Source: Porticoccaceae bacterium (GTDB taxonomy: Bacteria > Pseudomonadota > Gammaproteobacteria > Pseudomonadales > Porticoccaceae). Taken from it: 64,000 nucleotides of DNA. Positions 13,866 through 17,389 of this stretch are shown in pieces (position 1 is the stretch's first letter; each line of letters opens with the position of its first letter). Position numbers and translations under genes: made by a program. The notes beneath the pieces are model-generated. The model saw only the letters and a list, made by a program, of their open reading frames with translations. It was not told the DNA's origin and did no database searches. The stretch lies in NCBI GenBank assembly GCA_029248755.1, contig JAQWIR010000031.1, positions 1 through 64,000 of the forward strand, given 5' to 3'.

Positions 13866-13942
13866 GCACCCGTAGCTCAGCTGGATAGAGTAGGTGGCTT
13901 CGAACCACTTGGTCGGGGGTTCGAATCCCTCCGGGTGCACCA
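13866..13942 (+). tRNA. tRNA-Arg (anticodon TCG)
   Basis: GCACCCGTAGCTCAGCTGGATAGAGTAGGTGGCTTCGAACCACTTGGTCGGGGGTTCGAATCCCTCCGGGTGCACCA. Confidence 0.95.
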
Positions 13943-13944
13943 TA

Positions 13945-14010
13945 CAACAAACCCTCAGCCATAGGCTGGGGGTTTTTTTGTATGTTCATCTGGAGATTAG
14001 GATCGAACCC
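13945..14010. repeat. 66-bp direct repeat, copy 1 (contains tRNA-Arg terminator)
   Basis: caacaaaccctcagccataggctgggggtttttttgtatgttcatctggagattaggatcgaaccc. Confidence 0.95.
13949..13979 (+). terminator. [14 protein letters not shown] terminator after tRNA-Arg
   Basis: CCCTCAGCC-ATA-GGCTGGGGG-TTTTTTT. Confidence 0.85.
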
Positions 14011-14095
14011 CTAGTTCGAGCCGAGCGTGAAGCGCGAGACATCGCCAAAGCAAAGCGACGGCGACCCCAACGGGGTGAGCGGCATAGCCGCGAAT

Positions 14096-14114
14096 AATCC
14101 CGACCGGTGCACCA
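14096..14114 (+). repeat. 19-nt remnant of tRNA-Arg 3' end
   Basis: aatcccgaccggtgcacca versus tRNA tail aatccctccgggtgcacca (16/19 identical by eye). Confidence 0.75.
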
Positions 14115-14126
14115 CCCAACCAAAAG

Positions 14127-14192
14127 CAACAAACCCTCAGCCATAGGCTGGGGGTTTTTTTGTATGTTCATCTGGAGATTAGGATCGAACCC
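14127..14192. repeat. 66-bp direct repeat, copy 2 (182 bp from copy 1)
   Basis: Identical to 13945-14010 by direct reading. Confidence 0.95.
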
Positions 14193-17086: not shown

Positions 17087-17163
17087 GGACCGGTAGTTCA
17101 GCTGGTTAGAATGCCGGCCTGTCACGCCGGAGGTCGCGGGTTCGAGTCCCGTCCGGTCCGCCA
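17087..17163 (+). tRNA. tRNA-Asp (anticodon GTC)
   Basis: GGACCGGTAGTTCAGCTGGTTAGAATGCCGGCCTGTCACGCCGGAGGTCGCGGGTTCGAGTCCCGTCCGGTCCGCCA. Confidence 0.97.
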
Positions 17164-17208
17164 ATAACTATTAAAGGCTACTTCGAAAGAAGTGGCCTTT
17201 TTTATTGC
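17145..17208. repeat. 64-bp direct repeat copy 1: last 19 nt of tRNA-Asp plus terminator-like hairpin
   Basis: agtcccgtccggtccgccaataactattaaaggctacttcgaaagaagtggccttttttattgc. Confidence 0.95.
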
Positions 17209-17325
17209 GCGACTGAGCGTAAGGACGAGAACCCTGTTCGACAAACTAAGCCTACGGATGAGTTTGGACGCACAGCTTGACTGGGCGCCCCCTAGGGGTG
17301 AAAAAACCTTAAGGGTTTTTGAATC

Positions 17326-17389
17326 AGTCCCGTCCGGTCCGCCAATAACTATTAAAGGCTACTTCGAAAGAAGTGGCCTTTTTTATTGC
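17326..17389. repeat. 64-bp direct repeat copy 2 (181 bp from copy 1)
   Basis: Identical to 17145-17208 by direct reading, including the 19-nt tRNA 3' tail and T-run. Confidence 0.95.

Follow-up and report, generated by a model that had tools for sequence, protein, structure and literature searches.

The repeat unit of 182 bp that follows the tRNA-Arg gene in this Porticoccaceae genome is, judged by its sequence, a relative of the RtT repeats of the Escherichia coli tyrT operon, with strong homology in the core. Since 1991 RtT has been regarded as an RNA by-product of a single tRNA operon in E. coli. The comparisons below suggest instead that RtT is a very small mobile element: we consider it probable that at the centre of the unit lies a mobile insert, non-autonomous and about 75 nt long, which favours T-loops and enters them without target duplication. 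The window analysed is a stretch of 64,000 nucleotides at the start of contig JAQWIR010000031.1, and it contains two loci of this kind, one behind tRNA-Arg and one behind tRNA-Asp.

The intact host gene, tRNA-Arg(tcg), lies at 13866-13942 (ARAGORN; Rfam RF00005), and all parts of the locus are on the plus strand. It is followed by copy 1 of a 66-bp repeat (13945-14010), made up of an intrinsic terminator, AAACCCTCAGCCATAGGCTGGGGGTTTTTTT, which stands between the tRNA and its unit, and an inverted copy, now degraded, of the 3' part of the tRNA, CTGGAGATTAGGATCGAACCC, at about 13990-14010. Next come GTTCG (14014-14018), equivalent to tRNA positions 53-57 and the left half of an interrupted T-loop, then a hairpin-rich RtT-type core of about 77 nt (14019-14095), the putative mobile part, which is matched by both RF00391 and the tail-free model R1, and then a copy of tRNA-Arg positions 58-76 (14096-14114). 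Twelve bases separate this tail copy from copy 2 of the terminator and inverted arm (14127-14192), which we read as the relic of a further tandem unit without core; a congener (L180) has two complete perfect units and a like partial third. The initial annotation had reported 66-bp direct repeats at 13945 and 14127 with a period of 182, preceded at the second copy by a 19-nt remnant of the tRNA tail (16/19), and both observations stand: the two 66-nt copies are 100% identical at a spacing of 182, and the best downstream match to the last 19 nt of tRNA-Arg is 16/19 at 14096-14114, a score reached in 0 of 200 shuffles. The two hairpins that it placed before the remnant are also there in the order claimed, CCCC-AAC-GGGG at 14065-14075 and GCGGC-ATA-GCCGC at 14079-14091. 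Of the repeat stretch that it delimited as 13932-14192, the repeats are correct but the start is not, as the first unit copy begins at the end of the tRNA. It also lacked the inverted tail copy and two points that our data support, namely that the mobile part is the inner segment and not the tail, and that the known RtT repeats of E. coli belong to this family. The inverted arm scores 25 against its own tRNA versus a mean of 20.5 against foreign tRNAs, and a clean inverted copy, TGGTGCACCCGGAG, is found at the congener loci L178 and L179. The flanks of the core are tRNA tail and terminator, and not the ERIC consensus.

At the tRNA-Asp locus the parts follow one another in the same order and on the same strand. 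Behind tRNA-Asp(gtc) (17087-17163), whose tail 58-76 forms with the terminator the first copy of a perfect 64-nt repeat (17145-17208), the end of an inverted arm, GTTCG and the core occupy 17230-17325 (core about 17241-17325), and the tail (19/19) and terminator then recur at 17326-17389. The spacing is 181, so the period is nearly equal to that of the tRNA-Arg locus, as had been noted from the sequence.

The Rfam model of RtT (RF00391) aligns over its full length, positions 1-130, to 13981-14114 (28.7 bits, E 0.013), and the match ends exactly at the end of the 16/19 tail copy. The score falls short of the gathering threshold of 45 bits, and the unit is therefore not formally filed as RF00391 despite the homology of its core; on the tRNA-Asp unit the model gives no match. 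Because the Rfam model is biased by the tRNA tail sequence, we removed the tails from 43 cores from other genomes, those of E. coli included, and built the covariance model R1 from them. Its top match in the window is the Arg core (14013-14095, 42.7 bits, E 3.4e-8). The second-ranking match in the 64 kb is the Asp core (17235-17324, 12.6 bits, E 0.22), which is weak taken alone and falls in the predicted place and on the predicted strand. The hairpin pairs of the core show changes on both sides, which answers the call in the initial annotation for a covariance model of the inner segments and for co-variation within them. In an alignment of the Asp core with the core that follows tRNA-Lys in a congener, 67 of 80 aligned bases are identical, which none of 1,000 shuffles equalled. 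As R1 finds both loci and the Asp and Lys cores align in this way, a shared origin of the Arg and Asp loci is supported at the level of sequence.

A tail scan of this genome covered 30 tRNAs, 5 of which have too little downstream sequence, and extended the tail repeats beyond the two loci of the window. Four tRNAs carry the element: Arg, Asp, Ser(tga), which forms a third RtT locus with two units, and Pro, with a decayed fourth unit. Many contigs of the assembly end at or in tRNA genes (among them C4, C5, C12, C13, C16, C27, C33 and C40), so repeats near tRNAs may be under-represented in it. The proposal of one element family behind unrelated tRNAs also holds outside this genome, and it withstands the refuting condition set for it in the initial annotation. 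In the genus, 23 of the 50 congeners have R1 matches, and the tRNAs that the tail-free search finds as hosts there are of seven kinds (Tyr, Ala, Ser, Pro, Lys, Arg and Leu); in a sample of the phylum Pseudomonadota, R1 matches occur in 76 of 399 genomes, about a fifth, with the top scores, up to 78 bits, coming from a family outside the class. RtT matches at E<=0.01 are present in 81 of 369 genomes of the class. In the RtT search, 97 units at 84 tRNA loci carry the host's own 58-76 tail (Ser, Gln, Tyr, Arg, Glu, Val, Asp), and the tail-free search finds the same architecture behind Ala, Pro, Lys, Leu and Asp tRNAs and tmRNA, which brings the hosts to at least eleven kinds of tRNA and tmRNA. 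Cores stand directly behind the tmRNA gene ssrA at L218, L220, L230, L236, L239, L253, L261, L262, L327 and L344, and the flanks of ssrA-linked cores are the T-loop and tail of tmRNA. Core similarity was dropped as a tracker of either genome or host tRNA, as the signal is weak either way save for clear pairs: the nearest neighbour lies in the same genome in 11 cases versus 1.3 expected, and has the same anticodon in 20 versus 10 expected.

Across genomes, the flanks of the core are specific to the host and its position is fixed. The fold-back type of unit, with a host-matched inverted arm, accounts for 77 of 95 units; the arms score about 30 against the 35-nt 3' part of their own tRNA and about 19 against foreign ones (Wilcoxon p 9e-18, the units not being fully independent). 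In one genome (G015) tRNA-Gln and tRNA-Val are followed by cores with 94% identity, while the flanks of these cores differ and match the respective host. A rarer type is a direct tRNA copy with the core interrupting the T-loop, as in three complete tandem tRNA-Gln copies that precede an intact tRNA-Gln (L129 450-1360) and in complete tRNA-Ser copies at L274 and L340; tRNA-Arg and tRNA-Lys halves are found in this arrangement at L096, L122 and L128. The core, always in one orientation, parts position 57 from position 58 in both types. Of 84 loci, 40 show a further copy, after the last tail, of the stretch that follows the tRNA, and 20 keep the specific inverted arm at that place, a pattern that includes the window locus. 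Among core-free tRNAs, fresh inverted tail copies were seen behind none of only four controls. Four head-to-tail cores with little or nothing between them are found on the minus strand at L331 (489-813), so the core alone can also form arrays.

The core is also found away from tRNA ends. At L272 (genome G511, 1501-1581) a core of 62 bits lies in frame in hsdS, the gene for a type I restriction specificity subunit, where it adds exactly 25 codons, and hence 25 residues, flanked by KGL and NPNAP. Its target, GGTTTG^AATCCC, is a T-arm sequence by chance, and the site is empty in five homologues, from which the filled site differs by exactly 75 nt with no duplication. Among coding genes, insertion of the core was seen in hsdS only. 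Cores of 72-73 nt that match R1 also occur at one internal point, GATTCGGGTG^A, of repeats that we take to be of ERIC type from their likeness to the ERIC consensus; two genomes have at least 4 filled and 34 empty sites of this kind, and E. coli E2348/69 carries an unannotated ERIC with a core of 45 bits between rpiA and argP (L361 648-731). Cores were further observed in other dispersed non-tRNA sequences (L315-L320 and L268, G671), some with a conserved right flank, AACACAGGACGTGCGAG; the host is probably another repeat family. The T-loop rule does not cover every target, for the sites in ERIC, G671 and L320 lie outside T-loops.

A different reading of these data is that the unit is a gene for a structured small RNA, RtT acting as sRNA or attenuator, which is cut from the tRNA transcript, so that RNA pairing would be selected and the repeats would be gene amplification. 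The core hairpins are conserved with changes on both sides, the tyrT operon of E. coli is known to yield RtT RNA, RtT-family RNAs give Northern signals in Actinobacillus (PMC4986893), and the upstream arms of Tyr, Gln, Val and Glu units pair better with their own than with foreign tails. An RNA role of RtT units is thus possible. As an account of the unit as a whole we nevertheless find this reading unlikely, for an intrinsic terminator stands between tRNA and unit in 37 of 83 loci, the window locus included (0.8% in shuffles), and the core is also present in hsdS and ERIC, which are not tRNA operons. Several inverted arms also copy tRNA positions 44-48, which have no pairing partner in the unit; the arm was therefore copied from the tRNA and not merely selected for pairing with the tail. 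The stems, moreover, are almost purely Watson-Crick (9 G-T versus 1425 standard pairs in a strict count), and G-T pairs are not in excess of A-C mismatches (9 versus 5, p 0.21), a comparison that we dropped as a test of RNA versus DNA selection because mismatches are too few. In a table of E. coli sRNAs tested for effects on biofilm and motility, RttR caused no change (PMC4606813).

The reading of the core as a mobile insert would work as follows. An insert of about 75 nt with three to four hairpins, at the Arg locus 14019-14095, would enter precisely, in one orientation and without target-site duplication, chiefly at the 57/58 junction of the T-loop (GGTTCG^AATCC). In the sole copy of a tRNA such an insertion would be lethal, so the insert would survive in extra copies of the tRNA end, which consist of the direct 58-76 copy and, in most cases, an inverted copy of the 3' part paired with it. 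A possible source of the host-matching arms is fold-back copying from a template (template switching) at the terminator hairpin together with conversion from the tRNA, and whole units would multiply or shrink by tandem duplication and deletion; duplication of tail, terminator, inverted arm and core together would give the period of about 180 bp. The core itself would be moved by a candidate enzyme acting in trans. No transposition event was seen, and a search for a mobilising enzyme found none. For the Y1 transposase (PF01797), no match was obtained in this genome (89% complete) at E<=1e-4, and it is lacking in 27 of the 76 core-positive genomes. A requirement for it in cis was rejected on these grounds, and its co-occurrence with the core is positive in raw genome counts that ignore kinship (odds 2.0, p 0.007).

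Site-specific integration could also leave a copied tRNA end, the 58-76 copy being the displaced attB half of an integrase-type event at the tRNA 3' end and the unit a deleted or mini integrative element. The junction in the T-loop is crossover-like, and open reading frames that look integrase-like by eye lie directly behind the same tRNA-Arg in several congeners (L176, L182, L187, L188, L190 and L194), so that this tRNA end may serve two kinds of element. Integration of this kind is, however, a highly improbable source of the unit itself: there is no integrase in or beside it, and a search for a recombinase gene between the tail repeats found no reading frame of >=80 aa in the unit. Conserved, homologous cores stand behind many tRNAs, the insertions in hsdS and ERIC have no tail copies, the host-specific inverted arm and the duplicated terminator are left unexplained, and an element moving between tRNAs in this way would swap their acceptor ends. 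Local tandem duplication by replication slippage at the terminator and T-arm palindromes, with the similarity of the Arg and Asp loci due to chance, would fit the perfect local repeats, and such slippage is common at palindromes, but it is hardly credible given cores that are homologous across loci and genomes, which already contradicts chance similarity, and a junction that is always at 57/58.

Comparison of the fdxA/tRNA-Arg locus across the genus places the window copy in the history of the putative mobile insert. The element is intact, decayed, absent or tandem there: it persists in decayed form in the closest relative (L171) and several others, whereas in L174 it is absent and the terminator is directly followed by the gene found downstream in the window genome, and L180 has two perfect tandem units with 19/19 tails. 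On this comparison, the window copy is an ageing unit passed on by vertical descent, in a family with fresher members elsewhere, and since the locus is vertically inherited in close relatives, present-day activity at it is not implied.

We lean, with some reserve, towards a wider unification in which RtT, the ~70-bp insertion of ERIC and AaHKsRNA22 are one mobile element of about 75 nt. Such an element would target hairpin loops, foremost the T-loop of tRNA and tmRNA genes, would cause no target duplication, and could enter even protein genes in frame. If the three are indeed one element, it would rank with the smallest mobile DNAs on record, and the catalogued 'small RNAs' of one family, several of them annotated as such, would be footprints of a mobile insert with a fixed T-loop target. 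tRNA 3' ends would then be targeted by a new, very small type of element besides phages and islands, in an example of an element that targets an essential gene and yet leaves it functional, and the long-standing puzzle of the tyrT repeats would become testable. The literature searched holds neither a general account of tRNA tail repeats nor a link between the internal insertions of ERIC and RtT; within it, no earlier connection seems to have been made between RtT and a T-loop insert with further sites in hsdS and ERIC.

Among known systems, the palindromic elements of Rickettsia, compared by description and not by sequence, are likewise small palindromic inserts that lie in frame in protein genes (PMC10969869), and differ in their length of about 150 bp and their occurrence in Rickettsia. 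The lack of a Y1 transposase match at E<=1e-4 in this genome sets the unit apart from IS200/IS605 and REP-RAYT systems. MITEs such as ERIC resemble the core in being non-autonomous, short, hairpin-forming and dispersed, but those of ERIC type have terminal inverted repeats and TA duplications (PMC2759123), whereas the core, which shows no target-site duplication, does not have this combination. AaHKsRNA22 (RF02902, Aggregatibacter sRNA 22) shares the consensus order of the core, ACAAAAC-hairpin-GAACG-hairpin-CGGCCCC-AAA-GGGGCGAG-hairpin-GAGUA, and its model gives weak matches, all below the gathering score, on the Asp unit (17236-17337, 25.1 bits) and on ERIC-borne cores (L350, L361). Insertions of ~70 bp inside ERIC repeats, reportedly described by Wilson and Sharp (2006), differ from the window unit in their host, an intergenic palindrome, and in having no tRNA tail. 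In RtT itself, a tandem GA motif has been reported (PMC7657543), and Salmonella serovars are listed as differing in rtT RNA length in the manner of a tandem repeat (PMC2658671), in line with the tandem dynamics of the units. The tpr gene for a 'protamine-like protein' overlaps the RtT core in E. coli MG1655 (L059 688-777), and its coding claim deserves re-examination. The window unit differs from RtT of E. coli (tyrT/tyrV, rttR) in its host, tRNA-Arg, in the terminator between tRNA and unit, and in having one full unit plus a relic with a score below the gathering threshold; the two are alike in that E. coli repeats the tRNA-Tyr tail 58-76 at 178 bp (19/19), behind an upstream arm complementary to the tail and the same core as in the window unit.
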